A stretch of 64,000 nt of DNA, taken from NCBI GenBank assembly GCA_037042915.1, contig CM073202.1:3038001-3102000 (forward strand), written 5' to 3'. This document shows positions 8,192-39,493 of this stretch, piece after piece. A model generated the notes under the pieces. It searched no databases. It was not told the DNA's origin and saw nothing but the letters and a program-made list of their open reading frames with translations. Each line of letters opens with the position of its first letter. Within the stretch, counting starts at the first letter, position 1. This DNA comes from Auricularia sp. M13 (lineage: Eukaryota > Basidiomycota > Agaricomycetes > Auriculariales > Auriculariaceae). The translations under genes were made by a program, and so were the position numbers.

Positions 8192-9249
8192 ACGCTTCAT
8201 GTAGCCCCGGAGCATGATGTTTGGATATGTCTTGCTGCCTGCACATAATTGAGAGTTCGCATAACGACTTTACTCGTCTGTGAAACGACTTTTGACGTTT
8301 GACAGTAAACAGCAAATCCACGCTGTTCGGGGCATTGACACAGAGTGGATACACAGAGTCCGACCTCTTGACGTGTCATGGACGTTCCGCGACTTGAACG
8401 CACCATAAATCTGCGCTCTGATCATGATTGAAACAATTGTGCGATGGGAATCTGAGATGCGCAGATTCCTCTCGGTCGACATGCTGCATGGCCCCATCCA
8501 GCCCCATCCAAGCAGACCCGCGGCCGGCGCGCATGCGTAGGAGATATAGTGGGTCATATATCTAAGCATCAATCCTGTATGCATATTTGCGACAGTTGGC
8601 AGCAAGAATTCGAAGCGAGTGCGACGCGCTGAGTTCGTCGCGAGTCGGCGTCGGGATCCTGAACACATCAAATCTGACGACGTCCACTTGAAGAGCAGGG
8701 CCAGTGATAGCATGTGTAAAAGCATCGAGCGGGAAGCAGACAGTCAGGGGGCAGAGAGCGGAGTGAAAAACAGAGTAAAGAAGCTAGATGACGCGCGTAC
8801 AGGCAGACTGTCGTTCGCCTGGTCCCTGAGGCATATGCACACAAGACCATCGGCGCAAAGCAGAGAAACATTATGTCAATCGGTCATTTCAAGACGGTCA
8901 TGCGGCGCCTTGTTCTCGCGCTGCAGGAGCCAACTCCTAGCGGCTGAGCGTCGCCTGGCCTACGTGGCAACTGATAACGGCGAATGTGTGACGCGCAGAA
9001 GAATGCACATCTCTGCAACTCAGTGGCACGTGGATCAAGGGGTATTGTGCAGGCCGGAGGCTGGTTGGGTCAGGAAAATGTTGAGGAGAAAGGAAGCGAG
9101 AGCGGAGTTCACACCCTGGCCGCAAGCAGATTACCGCGTGAAAGCATGCTTCAGGAATCCTGGTTTAACATCTTCACCAACTCTCATGTTCAGTGTGAGC
9201 CGCGCTACTGTATTGGCTCACGCAGAACCGAAGCATCCTCGCGCGTCAT
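8192..9249. other. Intergenic sequence duplicated at about 23.2-24.3 kb
   Basis: No convincing gene. A 224-codon plus frame (to 9293) is present but shows no domain. Around 8930-9000 the sequence is a diverged copy of 23930-23990 (shared core like GCCTACGTGGCAACTGATAACG versus GCCGACGTTGCGAAAGACAACG). This marks the start of the duplicated unit. Confidence 0.5.
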
Positions 9250-9289
9250 CTACAGTTCCTGACACCCGTGGTAGCGTGAAGCTGGTGTC

Positions 9290-11960
9290 TTGACGGCGCT
9301 CTCACTATCACCAACGCGGTGCATCCAAAGACAACAACAAAATCCATTACCGCCACCGTCGCCGCCCCCAAGCAGCCGACGTCCACTCCAACAGCCGTTC
9401 GACAGCCGACTTCGCGTTAACTCCACTACCAGACTCAGCAGCTGCAACACCGTCACGCACTCCTCCTGCATCGCCGACTGCCGCCCGTTCTCCCTCGCCA
9501 AACGCGACCGCTCCCCCGTCGCCTCGCGCACGATGCGGCTCTTCCCGCCCGCGAGCGCAATGCGGCATATGGGGGAGGTGCATCGCGCCCCCGACACGCC
9601 GGAAGGATTTGCCGACGGTTGCCGCAGCACGCTTGCCCCGACCGGCAGTCGCGTCAGAGTGCGAGTGCGAGCGTCCGCGTCGAGGCGTGCTGAGCTCTTC
9701 GTCCGCGTCGGCGTCTTCGTCTAAGACCTCTGCGGGTCAGGGGAGCGGCGGAGCGAGTGAGTATTTTGAGGATTCCTGCGATGAAATGGACAGGGTCAGC
9801 GCGTTGGAGATGGGATGCGAATCAAGGATCAGCACTGGCACCACGCCGCACGCCGCTCAGAGCAGCATGCTCTCCGCTCCAAGCAGCACACCGCACGCCG
9901 CGCGTCGCATGCCGTTCGTCGCTCGGGGCAGACGCGAGAGAGAGCAGGCGAAACGTCACGCTCGCCGCGGAGTATGCTGTCATCACCCTCACGGGCGTGG
10001 CAGCAGCGAGACAACATACTCTTGCTGGAGCGCGCTGTTGTATTGCTTTCATGGGCGTGAGCCGGCGAGCAGCGCAGAAGCTGCAGTAGCCTGCTTTCAC
10101 ATGATAGAAAGCGTTACTTACTGTACTCCGGGGCGATGCACGTTCCTACTCTCACCGCCGCCGAGCCCGACGCCGGCAGAGGAACGCGAGGCGGCCGGGC
10201 GCGCGGGCGAGTAAGAGAGTCGGCCTATATATGCAGCGAGGACAAAACCAATCAGCCTCTCATTTCACGGCACAAAAACAGCGCAGAAAGTATAGAAATG
10301 AAAAACGCACCTCGCGACTCCGTACTGTACCATTACGACCATATGTTCGTTGTAACGTGTAACGCTGACCTCTGAGAAAAAGGTTAGATACCAGAAATCG
10401 CCTCCGATTACTTATCGGAGCTCCATCAGATAAGATTTTTATGATAAGATGAACAAATGGTCGTAATGGTACAGTACACTGCTCAGATCTAAACTGGTCC
10501 TCGAGCCGCCCGAGACGCTGGGCCCACCTTGCTGTCCGGGCGGGATGTTCGATATGGCAGGCTTCCCGGGACGGGCAAGAGGTGACCGAGCGCGATGGCT
10601 GCCGGCGCGGGAGGGGGCGCGAGTGGAGAGGTGGGCCGCGCGCCGATGTCGAGTGTTACTTGTTGCTGCGGCGGCGTTTGCGCATTCCGGTCTGCGGCGG
10701 CGGCGCATACTAGCCTGCATCGACAAACATAAAGCGTCAGCAGAAGGAGCAAATGAAGGAGCAAGCAGAAGAAAACAAACGAGCGGGGTATATACGATAA
10801 GAGGGGAACATGGGTCAAATGAGGCGCGGAATGCGTCAAGAGTGAATTCAAACAGGATAAGCGGGCCGCGAGGCAACAGGAACGGCCTGAAAAGAGAATA
10901 TAGGGCGAATATGGCGCAGAAATGTCAGGGGGGAGCAAACGCACCCCGCGCCTTCGGCAGTATTAGAGAACTTGGTCTAGGTGGATATCGGGCTGAGCAG
11001 CGGAGCAGAATTGCGGTGAGCAGCCAGCATAGCGCAGATGCAGATTGCGAGGAAGCGGAAGCCGCGGACATGTATCGTACGTGGTTGTTCAGGGTACGGG
11101 TTCGAGGAATGTACGGTATGGGCAGGAGATGGAACAGCAGGCGCGCAACGAGTAATCGTAGCGGGGAACAAGGCTGGTATTTTGCAGACGGGCCATTAGC
11201 ATAAGCGTCATCAGCGGTGACGGCAAGACAAAGAGTGACGGTAGGCAAGGGGTAAAGATAGGATGGGGGCACAAGAGGAAGACGGCAGGGCGCGCGACGA
11301 GAACCGCCGCCTCGTCGGCGAGGACAAACGAGCGGCCGCGAGGTATTAAGGCACCACAGCTGTTGCTGCCACTTGGCCTGGAACTCTTCCTCGTCCTGGC
11401 ACAGACACCACAGACAGAACGGCGCGCGGTCGTTCTGCCAGCCGCAGCGCGAGTAGTCGAACGTCGGCCGGTCGGCGCGCACGAGCGCGGCGTGCGGCAT
11501 CGAGGCCGCAGAGTCGTGAATGCGGATACGCGCGTCGGCATGCGCCTGGTGCAGCAGCAGCGTCAGTTGAAATAGAATGGAAAAATAGACGCGTTCGAGC
11601 GCCCGGCGCGACCGAGTCTGTCGTCGAGAGCAACAGACCTCCCAACGAGCTGCTCCCACGTGCAGACGGCTCGGCGTCGAAATCGCGTCCGCGACCGCGC
11701 GCGCGTGCTACACCGCAGTCGCAACGCGTTTGAGTCGCACTGGCCTTCTGGCCGGTCATGGGCATGAGCAGCTCCAGAGGCCATAGGCTCGCGCTTATTC
11801 GTCGCCACAAGATGTTGTGCAATTTCCGGCGCCCGTCGTAGATATGAACTTAAGGACAATCGCGGTGTATTGCGCCGGCCACATGACGAGGAAGACAGGA
11901 TCAGGAGTGAAGAACGGTTGCAGCTCCGACAACAAACATCTTGCGTCGAAATCTAAAGCG
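9290..11960 (-). pseudogene. Zinc-ribbon family gene, copy A1, decayed
   Basis: Homologous blocks run down the minus strand in the order seen in the intact gene at 61037-62319. A 5' block at about 11830-11930 reads PAQYTAIVLKFISTT. A zinc-ribbon block at 11350-11560 reads RADRPTFDYSRCGWQNDR then FCLWC. A proline block at 10500-10680 reads ALGHLLPVPG. A C-terminal block at 9400-9775 contains RRVGGAMHLPHMP. The first Cys of the Cys4 set is replaced by Tyr, the proline block shifts frame, and the C-terminal block has an in-frame TGA after APPLP. I therefore call it a pseudogene, although the zinc-ribbon block sits in a 244-codon open frame. Confidence 0.6.
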
Positions 11961-12119
11961 GCGCCGCAGCAATTTCACAGCTCAGACGACGGGCTTGGAA
12001 CGGCCGTTCTTGATCTGAATAACTATGTGTTGGTTTAGAAAATGGTTATATGGCGGATTATCTACGTTCCAAGCTGAGGACCAGTTCTTGTATCCAGAAC
12101 GATACATACTACCAGCAAT

Positions 12120-12680
12120 AAAAGCTCTTGCATACAGTCACACGAAACCTGTGTGCATCCAAACCATGCGGCACCGGGCCTCACCGTTGTGCACAGCTGG
12201 CTAAGGTCCCGCCGCGCGGCATGGGCACACCTACTTGCGCTCGGCGAGCCGCTACACCTCGAACACAGACGGCGGCTTGCCCCCACGCTTGGTTTCATCC
12301 GTACAGGGCGGGTTGCCCGCTCGTCGCGGGTTACTCGACGCGCTCGTGCAGGAGTTGGACGCCTCAGACAATTGCGGCTGTACGCTTGCCGTCGGCGACG
12401 TACCCCACGCGCGCGTTCGGGTCCGCGTGCAGACACTCGACGAGTTTTCCACAAAAGAGCAGTCGATGCGCCTGCTCGGCTTTTGCTTTTATCCAGAAGC
12501 CATCTCCACGCCTGGCGTCATGAATAAGCAGGCGAGGCATCACATGAAGACGGACGTACATATTTCGTCTCCGGCGGCTGAGACGCGCGGTCATGCTGGC
12601 CGGAAATCGCGCCCTGGACCCGAGCTGGCGCGCGTGGTACGGCGGCAGCAGCGCGCTCGCGGGTGAAGTCGCAACTTCGT
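12120..12680 (-). pseudogene. RING-family gene remnant a
   Basis: The minus strand aligns with the last exon and the end of exon 2 of the intact RING gene at 37746-39192. The sequence near 12190-12420 matches the RING exon at DNA level (GGCACCGGGCCTCACCGTTG-like start, CTCGGCGAGC, and CGCGCGTTCGGGTCCGCGTG near the first zinc ligands). A piece like PASALLPPYHA near 12640 matches the PPPPQYKRE segment of exon 2. Frames are broken in several places. Confidence 0.5.
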
Positions 12681-12785
12681 TCTAGCGATGCGAGCTGTCA
12701 GGTCGAGAGGCGCGGCACGCCGGAGCCGTACGGGTCTTGCAGCAGTGCGATTCGACCGCGACGCCAATGCGGGCGAGCACCATCT

Positions 12786-13580: not shown

Positions 13581-13779
13581 TCCGAGTCGGCGTCGCCGCT
13601 TTTCACTACTTTACCGCCCATACGAAGGGCGGAAAAGCGTTCTTGACCGAGATAGCCATCAGCTTGGAGATGATCACAACTGGCGAATTATTTACGTTCC
13701 CGAGCAGCATGTATCAGAGACCAGGTCTCAGTCCCGTACGAGCAACAAACGTGGACTGGAGTCACAGGAACACATGCAT

Positions 13780-14700
13780 GCATTCATATATTATCAGTGC
13801 GGCGCCGGGCTCGCCGTTGTGTACAAGCTGGCTGCAGGAGGCACTCCCGCAGCACGTCGGCTGGTCCGCGCGTTCGCGTTCGGGGAGCACATCCACTTTG
13901 AGCTCTGGCGGCGGCGGGATTGCACTTAGCTTTCAGGTGTCGTCCAGCGCGTGTGGTTGACCAGGCCGCGGCAGGCTGCTGGACGCGCTCGTGGAATCTA
14001 TGAGCGGCGCGAGACTTGCCATCGACGTCGTGCCCGCCCTGTGTCGCCCGCACACGCGTTCTGGTCTCTGCGCAGCGATTCCAACCGTCTGGCGCAGACG
14101 AGCGGCCGTTGCGTCGGCTCGACTCTGTACACTCATTGCTTCACCTGTGCAAGATGAAGTTCAACTGAAGAAGCTTGGAGCAAAGCACAATATGAAGTTC
14201 AACGGAAGAAGCGTAAAGTCAAGCTCCCGTCGCAGAGTCGAACGCGCTAGGCGTCCCTGGCGGCTCGTGCGACGCAAAATCGTTCGTGAGTCGTGAAGTT
14301 GACCGGGCTTGGTGTCTTACTGAATATAGGAACAGTAGCCCGCAATTCGAGCTTGATGCGGGTCGGTTGAGCTGCTTGAAGGTATATTCTTTGTAGCGCT
14401 GCGAGCCGTCCGCACTGAGCACGAAGCTCGGCATGCCAGAGTCGAAAATGAAGCGGATATCGCGCTCGTTCAGGTTGCGCCGCCGTCGCGCCCGACATTA
14501 GGTGTCGGCTGGCGCGGGATGAATCCACCCAACCCGAGGCTGCGCTGCTAGTGCTTGGTTGGATGCGGGATGGGAGGAATGGGTTCTCCGGCGGGTCCGG
14601 CGGAACGCGCTGGAACAGGTCCAATGAGCGGGGTTTCAAGCGCGTTCTCCGCTGGACCATGAACCAGAGACGACTGGCTCTCAAAGCTATCATGCTGTCC
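13780..14700 (-). pseudogene. RING-family gene remnant b
   Basis: Around 14230-14440 the minus strand reads GMPSFVLSADGSQRYKEY and then FKQLNRPAS. This aligns with GMPGLGLDADGWQRYDED and FEQLNQPAA in exon 2 of the intact RING gene. RING-exon homology lies at 13790-14100 with broken frames. It lies directly upstream of the NLR promoter region, as does its counterpart in unit 2. Confidence 0.6.
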
Positions 14701-14759
14701 AGTAGCTCTTTATAAAGCGTCCGACAGCAAGACTCCTCGCGACAGAATATCGCTGTATA

Positions 14760-15544
14760 CCGCTTCGTTCAGTGTATTTCTTTTTCTTTGCGGATTAGTC
14801 TTTTCATTCGACAATTTCAGCAGCACCAAGAGCCATTGTCTCTCGCGCAGCCGTGCGCGAGTCGGATGCACTGCCGTGTTTGGCACCCACGCCGCCCGTA
14901 CGGACCGCGCTGCTGGGCTAACGACCGCGCACACCTTAATTTCAGGTGTCTGTTCCGACGATATGGCGCCGCCTGCTCTGTGCGTCGCATTACCACCGCC
15001 CTTGTTGAGCGCTTAAAACGGTACGAGAACTTCCTTGTAATGCGCATCGTCCAATTTGTCGTTGATCTATATGGCAGCTTGTCACGGTCAGGACGTATGG
15101 CTTCGAATGCAAGCCGACTGCGTGAAGGAGGTCTAAGTACGTCGAACCATCTTCCTCGACTTTTAATTGACCTTGTACAAATATGTAGGTCATTCTCCGG
15201 TAATCGCAGCAGCAGCGATGGGACCGCAGTCATCGCGGTACTGGAAATCGTGCGACCGCTGCTGCGTATACTGTACATAACCGAGCGCGCGGCACTGCTG
15301 CGACAGGATGTGGCGCTCGTGCTGTGCAGACAAGTTCCCGAATACCTCGTGGACCTCGCTTCTAGTCGCGCGTCTCTGAGGCAAGGGTCGCGCGCCTCAT
15401 CAGAGGTGCCACAGCAGCGGTCCTTCAGCAACCGGGAAGCGCTTGCGGCCTTCGCCTTGCCCGCACCTTACCCGCGTGTCCCGCTTTGTTCGTCCATCGT
15501 CCCTCGCCCTCGCCTGCCGCCATCTACAGCCATACTCCATCAGA
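14760..15544 (+). promoter_or_regulatory. Duplicated 5' region of NLR copy 2 with pyrimidine-rich tract before the ATG
   Basis: The 780 bp before the NLR start are shared with 31000-31761 before NLR copy 3. The last 60 bp are CT-rich (CGTCCCTCGCCCTCGCCTG then CCATACTCCATCAGA before ATG), a common fungal promoter feature. Long plus-strand frames exist here in both copies but show no family resemblance, and I treat them as leader sequence. No TATA box was identified. Confidence 0.4.
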
Positions 15545-18500
15545 ATGCCCAAGCTCTCAAAGTGGTTTCGCGGCCTCAAACCGGGCTTGCGGAAGCTCCT
15601 GAACTTTCTCATCTGTCTGTCGCCCTCGCCGAAATCAACGGACGTCGGCGACAGAGCTGAAGCCTTACCGCCTTCTATCCCGGGTTGTGCGGGAACCGAG
15701 GTACGTGCGACGGTACTGAACTTACGGTGCGCGACATTCACACCTCCACGCAGATACCTACGCCGAACGCTCCGGGAACGCACGCGGCGGCGGTAGCAAC
15801 GCCTTCCAACGCGGGTCGCCCAGATGCCGCGCCGACCGCTGCTCCTCCCAAAGATGTTCCTGGAAGCGCAGGTGCTTCCGCGGAGGTGCGCAAATCGCTA
15901 ATACTCAACCTGTCGGTCCGTAACAAATCTTTCAGACCTCAGTATCCCAAGTTCGCCACGAACCGTCAACTCTGGACGCCGATGCGCTCGCGGTGGTCAA
16001 AGATGGCGTCCGCGCGGCAGAGATCGCGCATGCTGGCGCTGATCACATTGGCGAGCGCCCGTCCGACGCCCTGCAGCATGTTGCCGACAGCGCTGCCGGC
16101 GCAGACAAATGGTTCGAGCTCGTCAATGGCCTTTTCGACAAGATCTCTGCGTTCTCCAATTTTGTCTCGGCTATTGGAGAGGTGCGTAGTCATGTGCGAA
16201 TGCGATTCATTGGGTCTAAGTCTGCTGCTCAGGTTCATGAATACGCGAAGATGGCGGCCACTCTCATCCAGGCGGCTCTCAAAGTGAGTTCCCCTTCGTT
16301 CAATGGCTCTGCCTTGGGCTTCTTGCCGATATTTCCTAGCCCATCCTGGCGCAGAAGGCGCGCGACGATGCCTTGAAGGAGCTAATCGACGACATGGCCC
16401 ACGCTTACGACGTCGTCATGGCGCATCAGAATCAGTTCGAAGGCGTTAAAGACGACGAGCATGACCCACGCTGCAAACTGCTCGCACGGTTGGCGCAGCA
16501 AACTGGCGCATGCGCTATGTTCATTCAACAACATTATGATGCCAAGAGTTTCCGTGCGTGTCTCCCTCGATGCCAGCGCTGTCACCTCATCAACATCTGC
16601 AGTGAAACGAGCTTGGAAAACTACTCTCGATTTCGAGGTCGACAAAATGATCGTCGAATACAGAAATGCGTTCAAGAAGCTCGGACAGATGATAACTGCC
16701 CACGATATCCCTCAAATCATTGACATTGTCACGGCCATCAGCATTACCGCATCCCGTATCGGTATGCATCCATGAAAACATTAAATCAGACGTCTGACAT
16801 CGGTTTTACGGTAGAGGCGACCTTGATGCTGCAAGAATTAAAGTACGCCGAGGACATAGGCCGGAAAAGTGGCAAGGCTTGTCTGCCGGGTACTAGGACG
16901 GCCACCATCGACAATCTCGTAGACTGGATCATTGACCCTGATGGTACCCGTGCTCGTTTTGTCATCGGGGTCGCAGGCAGCGGCAAGTCGTCTATCGCAC
17001 ACACCATTGCGTCCCGACTAGAGGCTCTAGGTCAGCTCGGTGCATTCTTCGCGTTTGACCGCAACAACAAAGACCTGGAACCGCGGTCACTGTTCAGTAC
17101 TCTTGCACGTGATCTCGCGGACTGGAACAAGGACTTCAGGCGCGAGATTTGCGCAGTGCTTTCAACAAAGGCTCGCCTGGCAAAGTCGAGCGACGTCATA
17201 GAGCAGTGGGAGAACCTCATTGTAAGGCCTGCTCAGAAGGCCCATTGGGTTGGTCCAGTGGTCATCGTGGTTGATGCATTCGACGAATGCACTGACCTGA
17301 CGGAAACCCCGTCTGCGTTCGCTAGGACGGACCCGGATCTCCTGCGCCAGCGCGAGCACCTGCTGAAGGCCCTGACGGAGCGCGTTGGCGATTTGCCGGC
17401 CAACTTCCGTGTCCTAGTCACATCGCGCCTCGAACCGGACGTTGCCACGGCCCTACGCAACCATTCGAGCACTATCGGCGACAAGACAGCGTCTCTTGCC
17501 TTCGATCACATCGACCTCAGCCTGAAGGAGCACGATCCCACTGAGAGCATATCGGTCTACATTCGTCACGAGACGAAGCCACACTTGGATGACGAGCAGA
17601 TTCGTGCACTTGTCGTTGCAGCAGACGGCCTCTTCGAGTGGGCTGCAACAGTCTGCCGCTTGCTCAGTCCGAAGATCGGCGGTTCAACGGTAGCAGAGCG
17701 GTATAAGAAGTGGTTGGAGGCGCCGTCTGCGTTCTGTAACGTTGGCCTTGACAAACTCGAGACTCTATACGCGGAAATTCTCAGTCAGCAGTTTCCTGAC
17801 GAAATGGGAATCGACCGCTTCCGCTCTGTTATGGCTCAAGTCCTCTATTCCGCAGAGCCTGTCTCGATGGATACCTTAACGAGCCTTCGACGCGGAGCAG
17901 ACGCCAGCGACGGCGCGGTTGAGCTCATAATTCCGCATTTGGGATCCTTGCTCTCCGGCGTTGGCGACCCTTTGGAGCCCATTCGGCCGCTTCATACCTC
18001 TTTTCGAGACTTCCTGACGAGGGCAGATCCTCCCCACGCTTGGCATGTTGCACCTGGCGATGTTCACGGCGTCATGGCTCTCGGGGCTCTTCGCGTCCTG
18101 AACCAATCTCTCCACTTCGACATGTGGAGTTTCCCTTCTTCATATACAACGAATGAATATATCCATGATGTTGACAACCGTATGAAGAAGCTTCCCGCCG
18201 GGCTTGTCTACGCCAACCAGCACTGGACCTACCACCTCTCCATGGCCTCGACATCGGCTGTCACTTTGCAGACAGAGCTTCGCATTTTTCTCACGCAGAA
18301 GCTCCTTTTTTGGCTGGAGGTGGTGTCTCTTTGTGGATTCATGCACAGAGCCGTGCCACACCTGCTCACCGCCGCTTCGTTCTTAAAGGTACGCTGCTCA
18401 CTTGATGAAGATTCCCATACTGAACATCGCGTCCGAATAGCCATTGCATGATGATGATGCCATTGCGTTTATCAACGACGCCGTGTCATTTGTCAACATC

Positions 18501-20400
18501 TTCATCGATCCTATTCGAGACTCCGTGCCGCACATCTACCTATCTGCGCTGGCATTCTGCCCGACCACATCGCTGATTCGACGTACCTTTGTTCGTAACA
18601 GTAGTCTCCTACCCGCTGTCGACGGCTTGGCAGCGGCGTGGCCAGTAGTCCTTTGTCCCTATCGTGTGCAATGCCTTGCATCCTCACCCGACGGCACCCA
18701 TATCGCACTGGGCTGTCTTGACGGAGCTGTGCGCCTCCTAGAGGCAGAGAACATGCACAAGACAGTACTTGAGCTCTCGCGCGCTCCAGGCAGTTCGACT
18801 GGGGTCAGCTCCATTGCATTTTCGCCTGACGGTCAAACCATTGCTGCTGCTGCTGCTACGGGTGACAGCATTCCTGTGATCTTTCGGTGGAATGCTAAGA
18901 CCGGAGAGATGCTCGGCGTATCGCACGGGCACACTGACTGGATCAACTCTCTATGCTTTTCGCCCGACGGTCGAGATTTTGTTTCTGCCTCTGATGACCA
19001 GACAGTTCGCCGATGGGACGCCAACACAGGAAAGCAGATCGGCGACTCACTCCGAGGTCATACAGGTTGGGTTCTCTCCGTTCTCTGCTCCCTGAACAGC
19101 GACTCCATCATATCCGCCGGTGATGATGCTACTATCCGCATATGGAACGCGGATACTGGCCAACAGGATGGCGCATCTATTTATCCTCCCGGACAACGAC
19201 CGTTACGTATGTCGCTCGCCCGATCTCCAAAGAGCAATCTCATCGCCGTTGGGATGATTTCTGAAGACAGCTCCTCTGTCTGGGTCTTTGATATTGACCA
19301 ACGCTGCTTCGTTCGAGAGCTTGCGCGTCGACATCGCATCGGTCTTCCGATTAATGCTTGGTCCTACGATGGGCGACACATTGCGTCTGCATTCAACGAT
19401 GGTACTATCCGATTGTGGGACGGTTTCGATTCCAGCAGCATCGCCCTTTACACCCGGACAACGTCGGTCGAAGCTATTCTGTTTTCACCAGACGGCTATC
19501 ACGTTATTATGAAGCTTTACAGTGGTAATTTGCATACTGTGGACATTTCTGCCGCCCAGTCGCAGTCATCGCAATACGATACGGGTTCCGCGGAATATGC
19601 TGCGTACTCCCCCGATGGTCAATACGCTGCAGTGACTTTCCAGGGGAAGAAATTCCCCTCTGTATGGGATGCAAAGACCGGGGCGTCAATCTCAGACGAT
19701 CGTGTGCTAACTGCCTCACTTACTTGGCTCAAAGAAGCCATGGACAGGTCGTTTCGACACTATGATCAGGATGGTTGGGGCGAACGCAATGCTCACCGCC
19801 CTCATGACATCGTCTCTGCGAACGGTCTTCGCTCCGCAGGAGTTTGGTTTGACGAGATATCTATCTGGGATTCAGCATCCCAAACTCTACTTCGACCGAA
19901 CATACTCATATCAAGCTCCAACGTCACTTGCGTTGTGCTCTCCCCATTAGGAGATTGTGTTCTACAAGGCAGTTCTGACGGTACGGTTCGTATCTTTCAT
20001 GTCGACCAAAGCGCTGGTGAGCAATATTTCCGGGTATGAGGGAGATGGCTGAAGGGTAGACAACATCCCACTACCGGATACGAACTCTGTTGTGGGGAAA
20101 CAGCGCTACCATGTCCCAGAGGGAGAACATAGCATGCCGGTGCTTCGTCCAGGCCGGTTCACGGGGTGGCTTTACGACAACAACGATCAACATATCATCT
20201 ACGTCCCCGAGCAATATCGTGCTCTCCTCTGGCTGCCGGGGCTGGTGCATATCTTTCGTCCCAACGGCGAGCCAGTCACACCGCGTAGGATCGACGTCTC
20301 CGGCGTTGGGCTCGGCACCGAGTGGACCAGATGTGCCGGGGCTTTGAGCGTGGACCTCGGGAACGCACCCATGTCATCCGAGCCTGTTGCGAACGATTGA
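15545..20400 (+). CDS. NACHT-WD40 NLR-like protein, copy 2, 1482 aa
   Basis: Nine exons: 15545-15700, 15754-15885, 15936-16181, 16233-16283, 16340-16553, 16603-16761, 16815-18388, 18441-20016, 20060-20400; the joined frame closes. Residues 1-100 have a basic start (MPKLSKWFRG) and a Pro/Ala-rich linker. Residues 100-320 are a helical region of a type usual at fungal NLR N-termini. The NACHT has the P-loop GVAGSGKSS (about 371-379) and Walker B VVIVVDAFDE (about 468). The WD40 propeller runs from about 845 to 1369, with FSPDG and WD/RRWD units. A C-terminal domain of about 113 aa (VPEQYRALLWLPGLVHI) follows. Fungal NLRs of this architecture act in non-self recognition and regulated cell death; that role is inferred here. 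A minus-strand RING pseudogene faces its 3' end. Confidence 0.9.
16127..18004 (+). repeat. Near-identical tract shared with 32348-34225
   Basis: Read by eye, this 1.88-kb stretch of NLR copy 2 differs from copy 3 at about eight positions, introns included. The flanking exons (residues 50-170 and the WD40 exon) differ heavily. It covers the end of exon 3 through most of the NACHT exon. This suggests recent gene conversion or unequal exchange. Confidence 0.8.
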
Positions 20401-21210
20401 GCACGTCCATGTACGATGTTGTGTACTTATAATCTGGCGGTGGATGTGTCCTGTAGATACCGACGAGTTAGACTCACGATCTCATGACGCAGCAGCCGCG
20501 TCCGTCGCCCCATCATTGAGGATATCCGGAGTGCGACAGTCTTGAGGCGCCGTGAGCCGGACATCCGAGCGTCAGAGTCACAGCTGGGTGCGACTTGCTG
20601 ACACTGCTGCTCTTCATATCAGGGCTCCAGTCGTGACGCGGTGAAAGAGTCAAAGCCGCGGCATACCTGTCAATATGTCCGCATGGCGCAGCGAGCGTAT
20701 TGCGAGCTCGCGCTAGCGTCGAGAGATACAAGCATCGCTGGCAGTGGACCTCAGGAAGATACGAGGAACGTATTCAGCGCCGCCTCAGTACAAGAGCTGA
20801 ATTTCCTTGGATCTCGGAGCACAATCGCATCATGAATTGACTCTCCCGAAATGCAGCAGTGGCACCTGCCGCATATCACAGTGGCCTTGGCCTTCGCAGA
20901 AGAGTGTACTCTGCGTCAAACACCACATCGTAAGGGGCGAGGGCTCAGAGCGCAGCGAGCGGCGTGAGGTCAAGAGATCTGAATGATCGCAGTGGACCCC
21001 CGAACTTCAGAGAGCACGAGGAACGTGCTCGGTGCGACCTCTGCACAAGCACTGAGTTCCGTTAGATCTCAGCACAAGCCACGCGCATCGTCCATACAGC
21101 GGATGCGACACATGGAGCATAGACAGAGCCCCTGTGAACGACGATCGAGAGCCCACGAAACGAGCAAGGCCAGGTGCGTCGCAGTAAACCGAGCAGAGAC
21201 ACACCAGAGC
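20401..21210. other. Intergenic region with a diverged 240-bp repeat
   Basis: No gene is seen. A motif GCAGTGGACCTCAGGAAG near 20740 and a similar GCAGTGGACCCC near 20990 each start a block containing CGAGGAACGT and ending near GGATCTCGGAGCACA or AGATCTCAGCACA. The same block recurs near 37430. The start (GACGCAGCAGCCGCGTCC near 20485) matches 36735. Confidence 0.5.
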
Positions 21211-21327
21211 AGAACTGAACTGAACCAGGAATCTATGTTGGATGTATGTACTGACCCCACGCGGACGAGCAATGTTGACAATTGCAAGAAAGGCAGCAGC
21301 ACCAAGCCCAGGAATCGCACGCAGCGG

Positions 21328-27130: not shown

Positions 27131-27249
27131 AGGTTAGACCACGACTGGATTGAAATGCCCGTTCCTGGCCTTAATAACTATGTATTGGCTTAAAGCTGAT
27201 GACGGCAGGCGGATTATCTGCGTCGCGAGCGACATGAGGACCAGTTCTC

Positions 27250-28060
27250 GTATCCAGAACCATATCAGCAATAAAAGTACTTGACTACATCCAGACCTTG
27301 CCGCACCGGGCTCTCCGTTGTGCGCAGCTGGCTGAGGTCCGCCAGCGCAGCACGGGCACGCCTGCTCATGCTCGGCGAGCCGCGACGCCTCGAACACAGA
27401 CGGCGGCTTGTGCCCACACTTGGCTTCAGCCTCAACGTGCCGAGCAAAACGCGTGGCCCGTGGCCGCGGGTTGCTCGACGCGCTCATGCATGAGTTAAAC
27501 GCCCTTGCCGAGCGCGGTTGGACGCTTGCCGGCGGCGATGTGCCCCACGCGCGCGTTCGGGTTCGAGTGCAGCTTCACGACGCACGTGCAACACGATAGC
27601 AGCCCCTGTGCCTGCGCTTTCATCAATATCGCCGCCTGGCGTCATGAAATGAGCAGATGAAGCATCAAGGACGCAGACGAGCGTACCGAAGTCGTCTCCG
27701 CCGGCTGGGGCGGCGCGACGTCGCTCACTCAGCTGGTGGGCAAGCGCTTCTTGAACGCGATCTCGTGCGCGTACTGCGCAGGCAGGAGCGCGCTCGCGGG
27801 TGGAGCCGCTCGAATGTCCCGGGCTGAGCCTGCAGCAGCGCCAGCTGCAGCCGTCGTCGCCGCGCCTGGTATTATGCGCGGGTGTTGCGCGCGGTGAATT
27901 GGTCCGAGGATACAATGCGGTGCGGTTCGGTGATTTGATTGGGCGGGCAGAGGTGCGAGCGGTGATGAGAAGCGCGCCGCACACGTTGGTTGTGGATGTC
28001 CAGGCGATGGGGATCGCGAGAAGCGCGTCAGCTGGGGTAAGCGGCCTGTCACAGATGACT
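27250..28060 (-). pseudogene. RING-family gene remnant d
   Basis: Minus-strand homology to the RING exon (27290-27600) is followed by exon-2 homology near 27680-27800 (AQYAHEIAFKKRLPTS against PQYKREFLFKTPVPAG, then a stop). Frames are broken. The same piece exists in unit 1 as remnant a. Confidence 0.5.
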
Positions 28061-30229: not shown

Positions 30230-31000
30230 AGTCACAGAGCTAGCGCGATGACCGCCGGACTGGGTGCGCCAGCAATTACGGCGCTCAGGTGAGGTTGCCA
30301 GCAAGCGGGTGCAGCTACCCCGAACATTTTATTGTAGCTCTGAAAGTCGCCCTGCCCTTCGAGACCAAGGCCGACCATGCCAAACTTCAAAGAAAGGTAT
30401 ATATCTGCGGCGGCTGGGCTCCTCAAGATGCAGGAAGAGCGCGAGTCCGCCGCGTTCCGGGTGCCGGCGACCCTCGAATGCGAGGCGATGCGGCGCCGCA
30501 GCTGGTCGTCGTGGGAAATCAGAGACAAAGAGCCGTTGGCGCGCTCGAGACGCCGGACGCAGCAGCGAGTCCGAGGTGTGCATCTAAATGCAGGGCGGGA
30601 GCCTCCTTGCGTTGGCCGCCCGTGTGAGCAAGGCTGTGAGCAGTCCGCGTTGAGCACGAAATTCGGCATGCTAGAGTCGAACATGCAGTTGATACTGCGT
30701 CCGTTCTCGTTGCGCCCGGCGCTGCGCTCAACAGTGGGCTGGCGCAGGATGAATTCACCCAGATTAAGGCCGCGGTGCTACTGCTGGGTAGGAGGGTCGA
30801 TGGGTTGGGCAGCGGGTTTGTCGGAATGAGGGTCGGCAGCCAGCGGAACGCGCTGGAAGAGGGTCCAGTGAGCGGGGTTTTAAGCGTGTTCTTGCTGCTC
30901 TTCGACGTCAAGAGCCTACTCTTCCAGCATGAACGGCCACCACGTGGCCGTCGGAGATTGGTCCTCAAAGCTGTTATGCTGTCGATCGTGATTCCTCGTT
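30230..31000 (-). pseudogene. RING-family gene remnant e
   Basis: The minus strand near 30640-30690 reads SSMPNFVLNADCSQ, matching DFGMPGLGLDADGWQ of exon 2. The stretch 30690-30960 resembles the upstream part of exon 2. The RING exon expected at the lower end is missing, and the BTB block begins there. It is the counterpart of remnant b in unit 1 and lies in the same place, before the NLR 5' region. Confidence 0.5.
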
Positions 31001-31761
31001 ATTGAGCGTCCGACCACAAGACTCCTCGCGACAGAACATGGGTTCTTCTGCCCGTACCGGCGGTGCCGCTGCTGGAAACCGCTCCGTTAAGTGTGTTTCT
31101 TTTCTTTGCGGATTGGTCTGTTCGCACGCCCGCGCTGCTGGGCTAACTACTGCGCACACCTTGGTTTCTGGTATCCGTCCCGACGAGCTATGGCGGCGCC
31201 CGCTTGTGGCGTCGCATTACGCCGCCGTTGCTGAGCGCTGAGCGTTTAGAACCGAGGGCGCCGTCCGAGAACCTCCAATGCGCCTGGTCGTTTATGGCAG
31301 CTTGTTACGGACACAACGTATGGCTTCAAATGCAAGCCGTCTGCGCGAGACGAGGTTTAAGTACGTTCAACTATCTTCCTCGATTTTGTATTGACCTTGT
31401 ACAAATATGTAGGTCACTCGCCGGTAATCGCAGCAGCAGCGATGGGATCGCAGTCGTCGCGATACTGGAAATCGTGCGACCGCTGCTGCGTATATAACCA
31501 AGGGCGCGGCACCGCTGCGACGGGATGTGGCGCTCGTGCTGTGCAGACAAGTTCCCGAATATCTCATGGACCTCGCTTCTAGTCGCGCGCCTCTGAGGCA
31601 AGGCTCGCGCGCCTCATCAGTGGTGCCAGAGCAGCGGTCCTTCAGCAACCGGGAAGCGCTTGCGGCCTTCGCCTTGCCCGCACCTTACCCGCGTGTCCCG
31701 CTTTGTTCGTCCATCGTCCCCCGCCCTCGCCTGCCGCCATCTACAGCCATACTCCATCAGG

Positions 31762-34700
31762 ATGTCCAAGCTATCAAAGTGGTTTCGAGATCTCAAGCCG
31801 GGTTTGCGGAAGCTCCTGAACTTTCTAATCTGTCTGTCGCCCTCGCCGAAGTCAACGGACGTCGGCGACAGAGCTGAAGCCTTACCGCCTTCTATTCCGG
31901 GTCGTGAGGGAACCGATGTACGTGCGACGGTACTGAACTTACGGTGCGCGACATTCACACCTCCAAGCAGATACCTACGCCGAACGCTCCGGGAAAGCAC
32001 GCGGCGGCGATAACAACACCGTCCAGCGCGGCTCGCCCGGATGCCGCGCCGACCGCTCCTCCTCCCAAGGACGCTCCTTGCCGCGCCGGTGCTTCAGAAG
32101 AGGTACGAAAAATCGCCAGTCAAGCTCCCGGTTCGTAACAAATTTTTCAGAGCGCAGGACCCCAAGTTCAAGTTCGCGACGAACAGTCGCCTCTGGATGC
32201 CGATGCGCTCGCCGCGGTCAAAGACGGCGTCCGTGGCGCTGAGGCTGCTTATAAAGACGCTAGTCACGTTGGCGACGGTCCTTCCGACGTCGTGCAGCAC
32301 GTTACCGACGGCGCTGCTGGCGCAGACAAATGGTTCGAGCTCGTTAATGGCCTTTTCGACAAGATCTCTGCGTTCTCCAATTTTGTCTCGGCTATTGGAG
32401 AGGTGCGTAGTCATGTGCGAATGCGATTCATTGGGTCTAAGTCTGCTGCTCAGGTTCATGAATACGCGAAGATGGCGGCCACTCTCATCCAGGCGGCTCT
32501 CAAAGTGAGTTCCCCTTCGTTCAATGGCTCTGCCTTGGGCTTCTTGCCGATAATTCCTAGCCCATCCTGGCGCAGAAGGCGCGCGACGATGCCTTGAAGG
32601 AGCTAATCGACGACATGGCCCACGCTTACGACGTCGTCATGGCGCATCAGAATCAGTTCGAAGGCGTTAAAGACGACGAGCATGACCCACGCTGCAAACT
32701 GCTCGCACGGTTGGCGCAGCAAACTGGCGCATGCGCTATGTTCATTCAACAACATTATGATGCCAAGAGTTTCCGTGCGTGTCTCCCTCGATGCCAGCGC
32801 TGTCACCTCATCAACATCTGCAGTGAAACGAGCTTGGAAAACTACTCTCGATTTCGAGGTCGATAAAATGATCGTCGAATACAGAAATGCGTTCAAGAAG
32901 CTCGGACAGATGATAACTGCCCACGATATCCCTCAAATCATTGACATTGTCACGGCTATCAGCATTACCGCATCCCGTATCGGTATGCATCCATGAAAAC
33001 ATTAAATCAGACGTCTGACATCGGTTTTACGGTAGAGGCGACCTTGATGCTGCAAGAATTAAAGTACGCCGAGGACATAGGCCGGAAAAGTGGCAAGGCT
33101 TGTCTGCCGGGTACTAGGACGGCAACCATCGACAATCTCGTAGACTGGATCATTGACCCTGATGGTACCCGTGCTCGTTTTGTCATCGGGGTCGCAGGCA
33201 GCGGCAAGTCGTCTATCGCACACACCATTGCGTCCCGACTAGAGGCTCTAGGTCAGCTCGGTGCATTCTTCGCGTTTGACCGCAACAACAAAGACCTGGA
33301 ACCGCGGTCACTGTTCAGTACTCTTGCACGTGATCTCGCGGACTGGAACAAGGACTTCAGGCGCGAGATTTGCGCAGTGCTTTCAACAAAGGCTCGCCTG
33401 GCAAAGTCGAGCGACGTCATAGAGCAGTGGGAGAACCTCATTGTAAGGCCTGCTCAGAAGGCCCATTGGGTTGGTCCAGTGGTCATCGTGGTTGATGCAT
33501 TCGACGAATGCACTGACCTGACGGAAACCCCGTCTGCGTTCGCTAGGACGGACCCGGATCTCCTGCGCCAGCGCGAGCACCTGCTGAAGGCCCTGATGGA
33601 GCGCGTTGGCGATTTGCCGGCCAACTTCCGTGTCCTAGTCACATCGCGCCTCGAACCGGACGTTGCCACGGCCCTACGCAACCATTCGAGCACTATCGGT
33701 GACAAGACAGCGTCTCTTGCCTTCGATCACATCGACCTCAGCTTGAAGGAGCACGATCCCACTGAGAGCATATCGGTCTACATTCGTCACGAGACGAAGC
33801 CACACTTGGATGACGAGCAGATTCGTGCACTTGTCGTTGCAGCAGACGGCCTCTTCGAGTGGGCTGCAACAGTCTGCCGCTTGCTCAGTCCGAAGATCGG
33901 CGGTTCAACGGTAGCAGAGCGATATAAGAAGTGGTTGGAGGCGCCGTCTGCGTTCTGTAACGTTGGCCTTGACAAACTCGAGACTCTATACGCGGAAATT
34001 CTCAGTCAGCAGTTTCCTGACGAAATGGGAATCGACCGCTTCCGCTCTGTTATGGCTCAAGTCCTCTATTCCGCAGAGCCTGTCTCGATGGATACCTTAA
34101 CGAGCCTTCGACGCGGAGCAGACGCCAGCGACGGCGCGGTTGAGCTCATAATTCCGCATTTGGGATCCTTGCTCTCCGGCGTTGGCGACCCTTTGGAGCC
34201 CATTCGGCCGCTTCATACCTCTTTTCGTGACTTCCTGACGAGGGCAGATCCTCCCCACGCTTGGCATGTTGCACCCGGCGATGTTCACGGTGTCATGGCT
34301 CTCGGGGCTCTTCGTGTCCTGAACACATCTCTCCACTTCGACATGTGGGGTTTCCCTTCTTCATATACAGGTAATAAAGAAATCCAGGACGTTGACTACC
34401 GTATGAAGGAACTTCCTGCTGGTCTCATCTATGCCAGCCAGTACTGGAGCTACCACCTGTCCAAGGCCTCAAGATCTGTCAGTTTTCTGGCTGAGCTTCG
34501 TGTATTTCTCACGCAAAAACTTTTGTTCTGGCTGGAGGTGGCGTCTCTTTGCAAATTTACTCACGGAGCCATGCCAATCTTGATCGCCGCCGCGTCGTTC
34601 TTAAAGGTAGGCACCTCACTTGATGAAGATACCTATACTGAGCTATGCACCCGAATAGCCATTGCATGACGACGATATCATCGCGTTTATCAACGACGCC

Positions 34701-36632
34701 ATTCTATTTGTCCGTGAATTTGACTGGCCTATGGAATATTCCGTGCCGCAGATCTACCTCTCTGCCCTGGCATTCTGCCCGACTGCATCGCTGATTCGAC
34801 GCTCCTTCGTTCATAACAGTAATCTCCTACCCACCGTTGACGGCTTGGCAGCAGTGTGGCCTGTAGTCCTTTGTCCCTATCGTGTGGAATGCCTTGCATA
34901 CTCACCCGATGGCATCTCTGTGGCACTGGGCTGTATGGACGGCGTTGTGCGCCTCGTTGAATCAGAGAACATGCACAAGCCAGTACTCGAGCTCGCGCGC
35001 GACCCAGGCAATCCGATTTCGTGGATCTTCTCGGTTGCATTTTCGCCTGACGGTCAAATCATTGCTGCTGCTGCAAAAACGGGCGACGTCTTTGGGATCT
35101 TACGGTGGAATGCGCAGACCGGAGAGTTGCTCGGCACATCCCACGGGCACACTGACCTTGTCTGGACTGTGCGCTTTTCGCCCGACGGACGCTATATCGT
35201 TTCTACTTCGTGTGACCAGACAGTTCGCCAATGGGATGCCAACACAGGAAAGCAGATCGGCGACTCACTCCGAGGTCATACAGGTTGGGTTCGCTCCGTT
35301 GTCTGCTCCCTGAACAGCGACACCATCATATCCGCCGATGGTGATGCTACTATTCGCATTTGGACCGCGGATACTGGCCAACAGGATGGCGCGCCTATCC
35401 CCCCTCCCGGACAACGACTGTTATGTACTACACTCGCCCGATCTCCAAAGTGCAATCTCATCGTCGTTGGGATGGAGTCTGAAGACAGCTCCTCTGTCTG
35501 GATCTTTGATGTGGACCAACGTTGCTTCATTCGAGAGCTTGTGCATCAGCATCGGAACGGTCTTCCGAGTATTGCTTGGTCCCACGATGGGCGATGCATT
35601 GCGTCTGCATTCGCGGATGGTAGTATCCGATTGTGGGACAGTGTCGGTTCCAGCAGCATGGCCCTTTACACCAGCACGATTCGCGTCATCGCTATTCTGT
35701 TTTCACCAGGCGACAATCGCCTCATTTTGAGACATTCATATGGTGATTTGTCTGCTGTGGATGTCGCTACGGCTCAATCCCACTCACCGGAATACCATTC
35801 GGCTCCGGTGGACTATGCTGCGTACTCCCCCGACGGTCGATTCGGCGCAGTAACTTTCGGTGGGAAGAAAGTCCCCTATGTGTGGGATGCAGGGACAGGA
35901 GTGTCAATCTCAGATGACCGTGTTCTGGCTGCCTCACTTACTTGGCTCAAGCCAGCCATGGAGGCGCGGTTAGAACATTATGATTACCCTGATTGGCATA
36001 ATCGCATGAAGCACCGCCCGCACGACGTCGTCTCTGCGAACGGTCTTCGCTCCGCAGGAGTTTGGAACGGGCTTTGGAACGAGGAGATTTCAATCTGGGA
36101 TTCAGCATCTCAAACTCTACTTGAGCCGAGCATACTCATACCAAGCGCCAACGTCACTTGCGTTGCGCTCTCCCCATTAGGAGATTGTGTTCTACAAGGC
36201 AGTTCTGACGGTACTGTTCGCATATTTCATGTCGACCAAAGCGCTGGTGAGCAATATGCCCGGGTATGAGGGTGATGGCTGAAGTGTTCGGTAGACAACA
36301 CCCCACTACCGGCTGAGGACTCGGCTTCTGGGCAACGGCGCTCCCATGGCCCGGAGGGCAAACGAAGCGTGCCGGTACTTTGTCCAGACATCTTGGGGTG
36401 GCTGCATGACAACGATAATCGCTGGATCATCCACGTCCCCGAGCAATATCGTGCCAATCTCTGGCTGCCGGGGCTGGTGCACATCTTGCGCCCCAACCGC
36501 GAGCCAGCCACACCGCACAGGATCAATTTCTCAGGCGTTGGGCTTGGGACCGAGTGGACGAGATGTGGCGGGGCTTTGAGCGTAGACCTTGGAAACACAC
36601 CCGTGCTCTCCGAGCCTGTTGCGAACGATTGA
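31762..36632 (+). CDS. NACHT-WD40 NLR-like protein, copy 3, 1486 aa
   Basis: Nine exons: 31762-31917, 31971-32102, 32151-32402, 32454-32504, 32561-32774, 32824-32982, 33036-34606, 34659-36246, 36295-36632; closed frame. Architecture equals copy 2: basic start (MSKLSKWFRD), Pro/Ala linker, helical region, NACHT with GVAGSGKSS and VVIVVDAFDE, helical tail, WD40 propeller, and C-terminal domain with VPEQYRANLWLPGLVHI. All intron positions are conserved. The NACHT exons are almost identical to copy 2, whereas the WD40 exon differs throughout, including a four-residue insertion (NGLW) near the last repeats. It ends about 1.1 kb before a convergent, intact RING gene. A role in recognition or cell death is inferred from the family. 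Confidence 0.9.
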
Positions 36633-37745
36633 GCGCTTCCTGTACCATGTCGTGTACTGGAAATCTGGCAATGGCTATGTCTTGGATATTGAAAAATTTG
36701 AATGATGATTTGACTGCCCTCACTCGCCGGCTCGTGACGCAGCAGCCGCGTCCGCCGCCCATCCGAATCATTGACACAGATCGGATATCCGGAGCACGGT
36801 GTCTTCAGGCGTCGTAAGGTACTGAGTGAGGGTGTTCTTGGCACAAAAGATGTCCGGAGGGGGCAGCTCAGTTGCGGCAAGCCTCACATCGAGTTGTGCT
36901 ACTGGTAGCAATCAGGACTTGACCTGCAAGCCGACCAACTGCACATGCGTCCACTTCCAACGATACGCAGCTATAACATTTCGGGGACGCCCCGGGCACT
37001 GTTCGAGGCATTCACCTTCGCGGAGCCACGCACATGTTGACGCGGCTTTCAACAAACATGAACCCGTTGCTGCTCGTGCACATGGTCCAAATGTGCGACC
37101 CCCGGGCTCCAGTCACCGCGCGCTGATAGAGTCGAAGATACGCATAGCCGTCGCTGAGGACGCAGGGCGCATGCCCAGTGAGCCTCGAGATATTCGGTTG
37201 GACGATGGTAATGAATATCCAGACCCCAGAGATCAGCTGCCACTCCACTGCTGCTCGATGGCCTTCTTCAAATCGGCGACTCTCGGGCTCTAGTCACGGT
37301 GCGCTGACGGAGTGAAAGATGCGCAGGGCGCCGGCATAGCCGTCCCACAGTCATATCCATCGCTGAGGCCACAAAGCGCAGCGAGTACATGGCGAGGGCG
37401 CATGAGCTTCGAGAGATCTGTGCTATGGCAATGGACCTCAAGAGTTTTAGGGGCACGCGAGAACGTGCTCAGAGCGACCTCAGGAAGTACAGACACGCAC
37501 TGAACTTCTTCGGATCATCGAGCACAATTGTCATGACGTGCGTAGATTCAGCACAGAGCGCGGAGCACACAGAACGAGCCAGGCCAGACGGGTCGCAGAA
37601 CAGCAAGCGCAGACGGACACACAGCAGAAGAACAGCACCGAACCAGGAATCTATGTTGGATGTATGTACTGAGCCCACGCGGACGAGCAATGTTGACAAT
37701 TGCAAGAAAGGCAGCAGCACCAAGCCCAGGAATAGCACGCAGCGG
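36633..37745. other. Intergenic region of unit 2 with dispersed short repeats
   Basis: Matches 20401-21327. The GCAATGGACCTCAAGAG block near 37430 is the third copy of the repeat described at 20740 and 20990. 37640-37745 is nearly identical to 21220-21327 and forms the 3' flank of the RING genes. No gene is seen. Confidence 0.5.
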
Positions 37746-39192
37746 TCACACGAACACCTGTATAGCGCCACAGCCAGCCTTCTGCACCCAGACCGGCGCG
37801 GCGCCAGGCTCGCCTTTACGCACGAGCTGGCTCCAGTGGGCCTTGCCGCAGCGCGGTACGGGACACGCCCACTCGCGCTCGGCGAGCACCTCCACCTCGG
37901 GCTCTGCCGGCGGCTTGCGCCCGCGCTTAGCCTTGGGCTTTGCGCGCCGGGTGGGTCGGCGCGCGGGGGCGGACGGTCGCTGCTCGTCGCCGTCATGGGA
38001 ATGGGAATGCGAATGGAGGAGCTGCGCATCTTCGGCGAGCGCCGCGAGACACTTGCCGTCGACGACATGCCCGCACCGCAGCGCCCACACGCGCGCCGCG
38101 CGCGCGTTCTGGTCCGCGCGCAGAGGGTCGACGCATTTGGCGCAGACGAGCAGGCGTTGTGCCGGTTCGGCCTTGCGCTTTCCTTTGTCAATGACTTCTT
38201 CGCCTGAAACATCAAAGGTCTTAGGTCAGCCAAAACTAGAAGAATGCATGTTAAGGCTCTGAAAACGCACCCGTCTCGACGTCGAAGACCTTGGGCGCCT
38301 CCGGCGGCTCGGGCGGCGCAAAGTCACTCGTAAAGCCGGCCGGTACGGGCGTCTTGAACAGAAACTCGCGTTTGTACTGCGGCGGTGGAGGCGCCGCGGG
38401 CTGGTTGAGCTGCTCAAAGATGTCCTCGTCGTAGCGCTGCCAGCCGTCCGCGTCAAGCCCGAGACCCGGCATGCCAAAGTCGAACGTGAAGCGGATGTTG
38501 CGGCCGTTGCCCCCGCCGGCGCCGCGGCCGACGTTCTGCTGAGCCTGACGCAGGATGAAGCCACCGAGCCCGAGGCCGCGATGTGCGGCCGCCGCCTGGG
38601 CCTGAGGCGGCGGCGGGAGCGGCGGGCCGTGGTGGAAGAGGGCGGCGCCGAGGCCGACGGCGTGCTGCGCGGCGCCCTCGAACGGGTTCATGAACAGGTT
38701 GTGCAGGCTGAGGCGCAGGTGGCGCAGGCGGTCGGGGATGCCCGGCACGGGCGGCGGCGGCCCGGCGGCCTGCGGCGGCGGCGGGGGCGGCGAGAACAGC
38801 GCCCGACGGTGCGGGCGCCGGCGGTCTGCGCGCGGTGTCAGCGTCCAAGTCGAAGGCGGTCAGCAACGCCGGCACGCACGCGCACGGGTGCTGGGCCCGG
38901 GGCCGGCGCCGAACATGATCTCGTCGTGGGCGGCCTCGGGGTCGAACGGCCCGCTAACGTCGTCGTCGTCGTCGTCGCTGTCGTCGAGCACGATCGGCTG
39001 CCGCGGGATGTTGGACAGCGGCGGCGTCAGCGGCCGACGCCGGCCGCGCCGTGGCGGTCGGAGCGGCGGCGGCGACTCGAAGTCGTCGACATCGATGGCC
39101 ATGTCGGCCGAAGAGCCCGCCGCGGGCACGTCGGGCGCGCGCGAGTTGCGGCCGAGGACGAGGTCTTCGACGAGCGGAGCGGTGGCGGCCAT
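37746..39192 (-). CDS. RING-type zinc-finger protein, 441 aa, intact member of a local family
   Basis: Exons 39192-38880, 38825-38271 and 38203-37746 (introns 54 and 67 nt) close in frame. Residues 1-104 are acidic and disordered (VLDDSDDDDDDVSGPF). Residues 105-290 are Pro/Gly-rich, with a conserved core FDFGMPGLGLDADGWQRYDE. The RING-like end has VCAKC (310-313), LRCGHVVDGKC (333-341) and CPVPRC (403-408). An unusually long basic insert (RRAKPKAKRGRKPP) separates the last two pairs. A KGKRK motif just before the RING may be a nuclear signal. RING proteins are usually ubiquitin ligases; activity is inferred. Five decayed relatives lie in this window, one convergent to the other full-length NLR. 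Confidence 0.85.
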
Positions 39193-39493
39193 GGTCGCAG
39201 CTGCTGGACAAGATGCGTTTTGCTTCCGCTCCGGGTCCTCTTGGCGCGCATGTCGAGATTTGGGATAACACTTGGTAAGATCCTGACTGCCTATAACATT
39301 TGCGATATGTGGTAGTATATTCCACAGGCAGTCCCGCAAGGCTGACTCTGTGGGCCGAGACTGGGAGAGACTGGGATCTGCTTTCAACAAACGGGAGATT
39401 TATAGAATACTTACAATTATAGGTGTTCATTCAAGGTTCCTGGAAGAGCTTACTGTTCATTGGGCAATTAGCCAGCCCCATCTGGTACATACA

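Follow-up and report, generated by a model that had tools for sequence, protein, structure and literature searches.

The stretch of DNA analysed here (the window, 64 kb, C10:3038001-3102000) was found to hold part of a NACHT-WD40 gene cluster which, with a probability that we put at about 0.72, evolves by birth-and-death accompanied by gene conversion acting module by module. This evolutionary mechanism, in which modules are converted and copies are lost through inserts or broken frames, is better supported than the function of the encoded proteins as receptors. Coordinates are window positions (C10 position minus 3038000). The data come from one genome only, an assembly of 52,096,326 bases in 14 contigs, in which 224 kb around the locus were examined. 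Its introns, AA9 enzymes, urease and Plavaka elements would suit a wood-decay basidiomycete.

Extent and organization of the cluster

Eight NLR loci, N1 to N8, were recognized over about 165 kb, arranged in two opposed arms. The first-pass annotation had considered the cluster to be caught within the window, a view that did not hold, since the cluster extends well beyond it:

N1 to N4, starting at about -16, -5, 15.5 and 31.8 kb, plus strand: left arm
39.2-101.5 kb: 62-kb spacer with ordinary genes (AA9 twice, F-box, BTB, urease and others)
N5 to N8, starting at about 112, 126, 137 and 147 kb, minus strand: right arm

Six-frame searches of the whole assembly with the NACHT exon gave at least 16 matches, ten of them within C10:3023181-3184092; the six found elsewhere, among the matches listed, had identities of at most 41%. 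The start of the WD40 exon gave at least 12 matches, nine inside the eight loci and the other three at 28-45% identity. At least eight matches were obtained with the zinc-ribbon stretch, all of them in the cluster among the matches listed, and at least 21 matching pieces with the RING exon, 19 in the cluster and two on contigs C1 and C4. These two were not located beside NACHT matches, among the matches listed, and the whole-assembly searches revealed no second copy of the cluster, again among the matches listed. A small remnant of an NLR N-terminal part was present beyond N1 (-23266 to -23113, E 0.002).

The NACHT types read, from left to right, A, B, C and C in the left arm, and A-like (exons 1-3 of N5 only), B, C and mosaic (N8) in the right arm. 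Because an inverted copy should show the types in reversed order, a simple inverted duplication would fit the two arms poorly.

Some further elements were observed in and near the window. Two genes for AA9 proteins (lytic polysaccharide monooxygenases) are located in the spacer, at 51850-52785 and at L004:8798-9652, both on the minus strand, with a 70% match between 52141-52569 and 73059-73481. Two BTB-domain frames (53155-53934 and 54543-54956, plus strand) form a small tandem pair, 53444-53578 matching 54808-54942 at 74% over 135 bp. Positions 24898-24984 hold 2.8 copies of a 31-bp tandem repeat. Scans of the 64-kb window for tRNAs and Rfam families gave no hits.

Gene layout and state of the loci

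The exons of the N3 gene model were projected onto the alignment to read the other loci. The NLR features of the window are the following:

5739-7838, plus strand: 3' half of N2, with the end of exon 7 and the WD40 exon (tblastn of N3 residues 691-1377)
15545-20039, plus strand: NLR N3, open, 1376 aa, gene model with eight exons (15545-15700, 15754-15885, 15936-16181, 16233-16283, 16340-16553, 16603-16761, 16815-18388, 18441-20039)
31762-36269, plus strand: NLR N4, open, 1381 aa, eight exons

The eight-exon layout with GT/AG borders was common to the other loci, with exceptions in N8, where the donor after exon 5 is GC and the end of exon 2 is not settled. Exon 7 of N3 matched NPHP3_N (E 1.6e-20) and NACHT (27.1 bits versus a cut-off of 26.7) in Pfam, and the Pfam match to WD40 had an E value of 1.5e-36. 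The genes thus carry the features of fungal NLRs, a NACHT-type nucleotide-binding domain and C-terminal WD40 repeats. The N-terminal part gave no convincing match in Pfam (N3 and N5 whole), in PDB (N3) or in either (exons 3-6 of six of the eight loci), so that its role is a guess. HeLo and BaMLKL domains were considered for this part and found no convincing match, the best hits being Holin_BhlA (E 0.0069, one of six members) and Alanine_zipper (E 0.014, two members). Basidiomycete NLRs commonly carry domains of the BaMLKL type according to the accessible text of PMC9815663, and such an N-terminal domain is a lead only for the present genes.

Three of the eight loci, N3, N4 and N5 (1392 aa), were open throughout. 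In N1 the reading frame is broken within exon 8, the WD40 exon; exons 7 and 8 of N8 are open; N2, N6 and N7 are split by insertions, and stops in their halves occur only near the gene end. Half of the eight copies therefore look broken, three of them by inserts, as judged from their reading frames. Inactivated and duplicated members coexist in the cluster, and this mixture of open, split and frame-broken loci supports the birth-and-death interpretation given in the first-pass annotation. Its list of intact genes in the window was also correct, N3 and N4 being open through eight exons and one RING gene being open (39192-37746). The truncated NLR that it placed ahead of the two duplicated blocks corresponds to the 3' half of N2, which includes the open frame 6249-7838. 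An NLR 3' half is indeed present there, at about 5.7 kb, but the gene is split by a transposon rather than truncated: the missing 5' half was found to the left of the window, at about -5.4 to -2.9 kb, and ends at -2885.

Inserted elements

The element that splits N2 enters the window from the left:

1-5738: right part of a Plavaka-type DNA transposon (whole insert 8.6 kb, about -2884 to 5738)

Its part left of the window encodes a Plavaka transposase (PF18759, E 8.8e-79) and DUF6830. Matching ends, read by eye, are CTTCTGTAAAAA...TTTTTACAGAAG, with a target duplication TC (or GTC with one end base less), and N6 and N8 are uninterrupted at their matching positions. A copy of this transposase with 98% identity on contig C2 suggests that the family has moved recently. 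The insert in N6 is 1,548 bp long, with perfect 11-bp ends (CATCATGAAAA/TTTTCATGATG) and a 2-bp duplication (AT); in N3 coordinates, it is located at most about 65 bp from the N2 insert. N7 is interrupted by about 0.85 kb; judged by its ends alone (TG...CA, flanked by a 5-bp duplication), this insert is like a solo LTR.

The ends CATCATGAAAA...TTTTCATGATG with a 2-bp duplication are those given for PlavakaB in the accessible text of PMC12730594, and the N6 insert, placed by its ends alone, is alike in both respects. The N2 insert is much like PlavakaA of the same text in that its ends include TGT...ACA and its duplication is short, but differs in that its end match runs beyond TGT..ACA (PMC12730594). 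A large palindrome was also observed about 3 kb from N6, where 979 bp (115793-116771, L009:1793-2771) match their own reverse complement at 87%.

The two blocks of the window

A tandem 15-kb duplication had been described in the first-pass annotation. The two blocks are real, collinear and direct (9.3-22.6 and 24.3-39.1 kb), and self-comparison gave the expected collinear diagonal, well marked along some 8 kb and broken into patches elsewhere; however, they are not simply the product of one young duplication, as detailed below. The gene order and strands reported for them were found in both: zinc-ribbon (minus), RING remnants (minus), NACHT-WD40 (plus), RING (minus). Besides the NLRs, they contain:

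11321-11449, minus strand: zinc-ribbon remnant, block 1 (tblastn; Tyr replaces the first ribbon Cys)
12219-12657, minus strand: RING-gene remnant (tblastn; two frames and a stop)
13762-14470, minus strand: RING-gene remnant (tblastn)
21328-22617, minus strand: RING gene, block 1 (open frame in the RING exon; sequence upstream of it spread over several frames, with a stop)
26379-26666, minus strand: zinc-ribbon gene, block 2 (without a stretch that includes the first ribbon Cys)
27266-27809, minus strand: RING-gene remnant (tblastn)
30328-30804, minus strand: RING-gene remnant (tblastn)
37746-39192, minus strand: RING gene, block 2 (gene model, open, 441 aa; exons 39192-38880, 38825-38271, 38203-37746)

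No RING domain scored above a curated Pfam cut-off in the block 2 gene (best 16.9 bits versus 27.9, zf-RING_5), only its Cys/His pattern being RING-like. The RING exons of the two blocks differ at 16 of 458 bases with two amino-acid changes, a small number that would fit past purifying selection but could also be due to conversion. The zinc-ribbon copies are degraded in both blocks; unlike them, a right-arm zinc-ribbon gene (101672-102658, L007:7672-8658, plus strand) has kept its CPRC...CLWC motif and an open frame. A weak further zinc-ribbon-like match was observed at 62005-62130 (minus strand, 43% identity, E 0.004). The RING and zinc-ribbon genes were probably copied along with the NLR unit; a putative RING-NLR partnership was only considered.

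Self-comparison aligned 14905-20556 with 31130-36818 at 87.7% over 5,734 columns and 21149-22554 with 37563-39006 at 90.1%; the other matches were 9312-9778 with 24333-24819 (76%), 10474-10697 with 25394-25611 (77%) and 11181-12672 with 26335-27809 (69%). Read in steps of 200 columns, identity varied from 72% to 100% within 14.9-20.5 kb. It was 59-85% up to 15162, 93-96% at 15163-15762, 81-83% at 15763-16156, 98.5-100% at 16157-17956, 94.5% at 17957-18156 and 76-90% from there through the WD40 exon, and reached 88-98.5% at 21117-22615, in the RING gene. Synonymous divergence between the blocks was equally uneven: the NACHT parts of N3 and N4 were near-identical (dS 0.015), whereas the dS of 0.27 between their WD40 exons was no closer than that of other pairs. 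Given this identity profile and the dS values, we reject one uniform and recent duplication of 15 kb as the only cause.

Near-identical tracts

Two stretches stand out from the surrounding block identity:

16098-18054 with 32319-34275: near-identical tract of N3 and N4 (10 mismatches in 1,957 columns)
21222-21579: second tract, in the RING gene (6 mismatches in 358 versus block 2)

Outside the first tract, N3 and N4 showed 604 mismatches in the other 3,611 columns. The tract scored 1747 versus 129 for the best of 1000 column shuffles, and its longest identical run was 472 versus at most 111, these shuffles ignoring uneven constraint; the second tract was reached by none of 1000 shuffles. N2 and N6, located on opposed arms more than 120 kb apart, shared a 5' fragment (N3 15789-16869) with 18 mismatches in 512 polymorphic sites. 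The N3/N4 tract ends near the NACHT/WD40 border, and the N2/N6 fragment before it. We read the near-identical tracts as probable gene conversion. Since a crossover between opposed arms would invert the spacer, conversion would be favoured over unequal crossing-over.

A less probable history is that the whole 15-kb unit was recently duplicated in tandem and that its flanks were later patched from other members. The identical order and strands of the blocks, both tracts, the 93-96% identity upstream of the longer one and the compatibility of an N3+N4 clade with the WD40 data (p-AU 0.33) are all consistent with such an event. On the other hand, identity drops on either side of the tract, to 81-83% on the left and 76-90% on the right, the WD40 exons of N3 and N4 have diverged like those of other pairs, and beyond the RING gene only patches of 69-77% are left, so that much of the flanks would need to have been replaced. 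This makes it unlikely in our opinion, and the pattern would rather fit N3 and N4 being older duplicates that were patched by gene conversion.

NLR alleles can be very divergent, and two alleles or haplotypes laid in tandem by the assembly, or a false near-identical tract, might be suspected. Such an artefact is very improbable given the six further loci with their own flanks and inserts, the 10 mismatches inside the tract, the absence of any N in the 224 kb examined and a spacer that showed a single self-match, of about 0.4 kb, when these 224 kb were compared with themselves (matches of at least 150 bp).

Different histories of the NACHT part and the WD40 exon

The N-terminal/NACHT part exists in a few old types. 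Eight sequences were compared over the main NACHT part (N3 16815-17929); their synonymous divergence was 0.31-0.56 in the within-type pairs other than N3-N4 (N2-N6, N8 with N2 and N6, N7 with N3 and N4), and 1.0-1.4 between types, near saturation; dN/dS was 0.08 for N3-N4 and 0.19-0.35 for the other pairs. In contrast, all 21 pairs of WD40 exons (seven sequences, N7 being left out and N1 being cut before its frame break) had a dS of 0.24-0.52, with a dN/dS of 0.50-0.68. Genes of different NACHT types thus carry WD40 exons that are not near saturation, the drop in dS from NACHT to WD40 being roughly threefold to fivefold in these pairs; within-type pairs such as N2-N6 showed no drop.

The trees point in the same direction. 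In the 5' tree, introns included, the groups N3+N4+N7, N2+N6 and N1+N5 each had a support of 100/100, while the WD40 tree (18100-20039, intron 7 included) rejected N1+N5 (p-AU 0.0008), N3+N4+N7 (0.002) and N2+N6 (0.022). In steps of 150 bp, the nearest partner of a locus was mostly steady in exons 1-7, with N1, N5 and N8 as exceptions, and switched often past about 18.1 kb, where patches of 98-99% connect, e.g., N1-N6, N1-N4 and N6-N8. The fragment test on polymorphic exon sites placed 11 of the 28 pairs beyond all 1000 shuffles in exons 7b-8, including N1-N6, N3-N5, N3-N8 and N2-N6 across the opposed arms, and eight of 28 in exons 1-7a. The neighbour-incompatibility test gave its floor value (p 0.001) in all four blocks, including exons 1-6, NACHT and WD40; as the first two are among them, exchange is not confined to the WD40 exon. 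N8 is itself a mosaic in its 5' part.

These discordances might be explained with no exchange at all, if the WD40 exon were slow at synonymous sites and the conflict between trees were noise. The propeller framework is under visible constraint, and only two of the five inner branches of the WD40 tree are fully supported, both of which would suit this explanation. It is the least probable of those weighed, because the lower dS of the WD40 exon is accompanied by a dN/dS that is higher than in NACHT, because three of the four groups taken from the 5' part fail the AU test and because the 98-99% patches connect loci of different type. Exchange between family members, preferentially conversion, accounts better for the observations.

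Blades and variable surface of the propeller

The predicted propeller had a mean pLDDT of 67.9, with 76-94 in blocks of residues 121-320, and its Foldseek hits were WD40 propellers and Apaf-1. Blades of the same gene were only distantly alike (mean identity 0.23, maximum 0.50; 216 blade pairs from six sequences), while the same blade compared between genes was 67% identical, which indicates exchange by position and not between repeat units.

Among seven sequences, 21 codons showed five or more amino acids, and seven of these were located at S-5 or at positions adjacent to D, S being the SPDG-like motif and D the conserved D of a blade, relative to which position sets were counted. In the predicted propeller, such sites lie where strand a begins and in the b-c loop, and the S-5/S-7 and D-1/D+1 sets are taken here to form the top face according to WD40 rules. 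Top-face positions were named after the variable sites had been seen, and the following values, obtained by comparison with random position sets, are to be read accordingly. Nonsynonymous differences per codon pair amounted to 1.048 at S-5/S-7 (17 of 18 positions usable; reached by none of 10000 random sets), 0.734 at D-1/D+1 (n=14; reached by 42 of 10000) and 0.906 for both sets pooled (none of 10000), versus 0.410 for all sites. The control sets S-4/S-6 (2177 of 10000) and D/D+2 (7207 of 10000) were not raised. Synonymous differences were not clearly raised in the S set (6571 of 10000) or the pooled set (2212 of 10000), and somewhat raised in the D set (587 of 10000). The pN/pS ratio was 1.69 for the S set, 1.14 pooled, 0.39 for D/D+2 and 0.60 for the rest of the propeller; that of the D set alone, 0.73, was below the 0.94 of the control S-4/S-6. 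Of the two sets, S-5/S-7 thus carries the stronger top-face signal.

Comparison with known systems

The closest counterparts are the HNWD genes of Podospora anserina (het-d, het-e and relatives), which are likewise NACHT-WD40 genes in which WD40 repeats are exchanged and the NACHT part is more divergent; their paired selected surface positions around a conserved residue have much the same layout, as far as the accessible text goes (PMC1805685). According to the part of PMC4986451 available, HNWD repeat units are about 85% alike inside one gene and are exchanged within and between genes. The present cluster differs from them, since its blades stay far below this level within a gene and are exchanged by position, and since its loci share an exon layout and are located in one cluster. 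In the accessible text of PMC12258605, NLR clusters of Sordariales comprise two to five NLRs, 16 of 272 clusters consist of paralogous copies, and diversification of fungal NLRs in clusters by conversion is offered as a suggestion; here, eight paralogous loci are arranged in two opposed arms. Birth-and-death has been proposed for fungal NLRs in PMC4986451, where van der Nest et al. 2014 is cited for basidiomycete het homologs. The evidence in the accessible part of that work is at the level of repertoires, whereas here a single locus displays tracts, breaks and inserts.

A literature search, with most subscription journals outside its scope, found no report of such a cluster in a basidiomycete. 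Among plants, type I resistance-gene clusters (e.g. lettuce RGC2) have chimeric members that result from frequent sequence exchange. They resemble the present cluster in these chimeric members and differ by their LRR sensors and NB-ARC domain, an unrelated architecture.

Proposed mechanism and significance

Judging from domain architecture, the genes most likely encode intracellular NACHT-WD40 receptors. The top face of the propeller would sense a target, NACHT would oligomerise and the N-terminal part would act downstream. Positional conversion in the WD40 exon would spread and recombine sensor variants, the signalling part staying in few types. As a tentative extension, which we consider possible rather than probable, the cluster might constitute an in-situ sensor library: a few signalling modules would be combined with a shared pool of positionally converted WD40 segments across the opposed arms, blade-sized copying would make new receptors, and broken copies might still serve as donors.

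At this one locus the process can be followed base by base, from the module that is exchanged and the points at which tracts stop to the residues that vary and the ways in which copies are broken. Should the pattern be confirmed in other strains, the evolution of sensors in fungal immunity would become directly testable.
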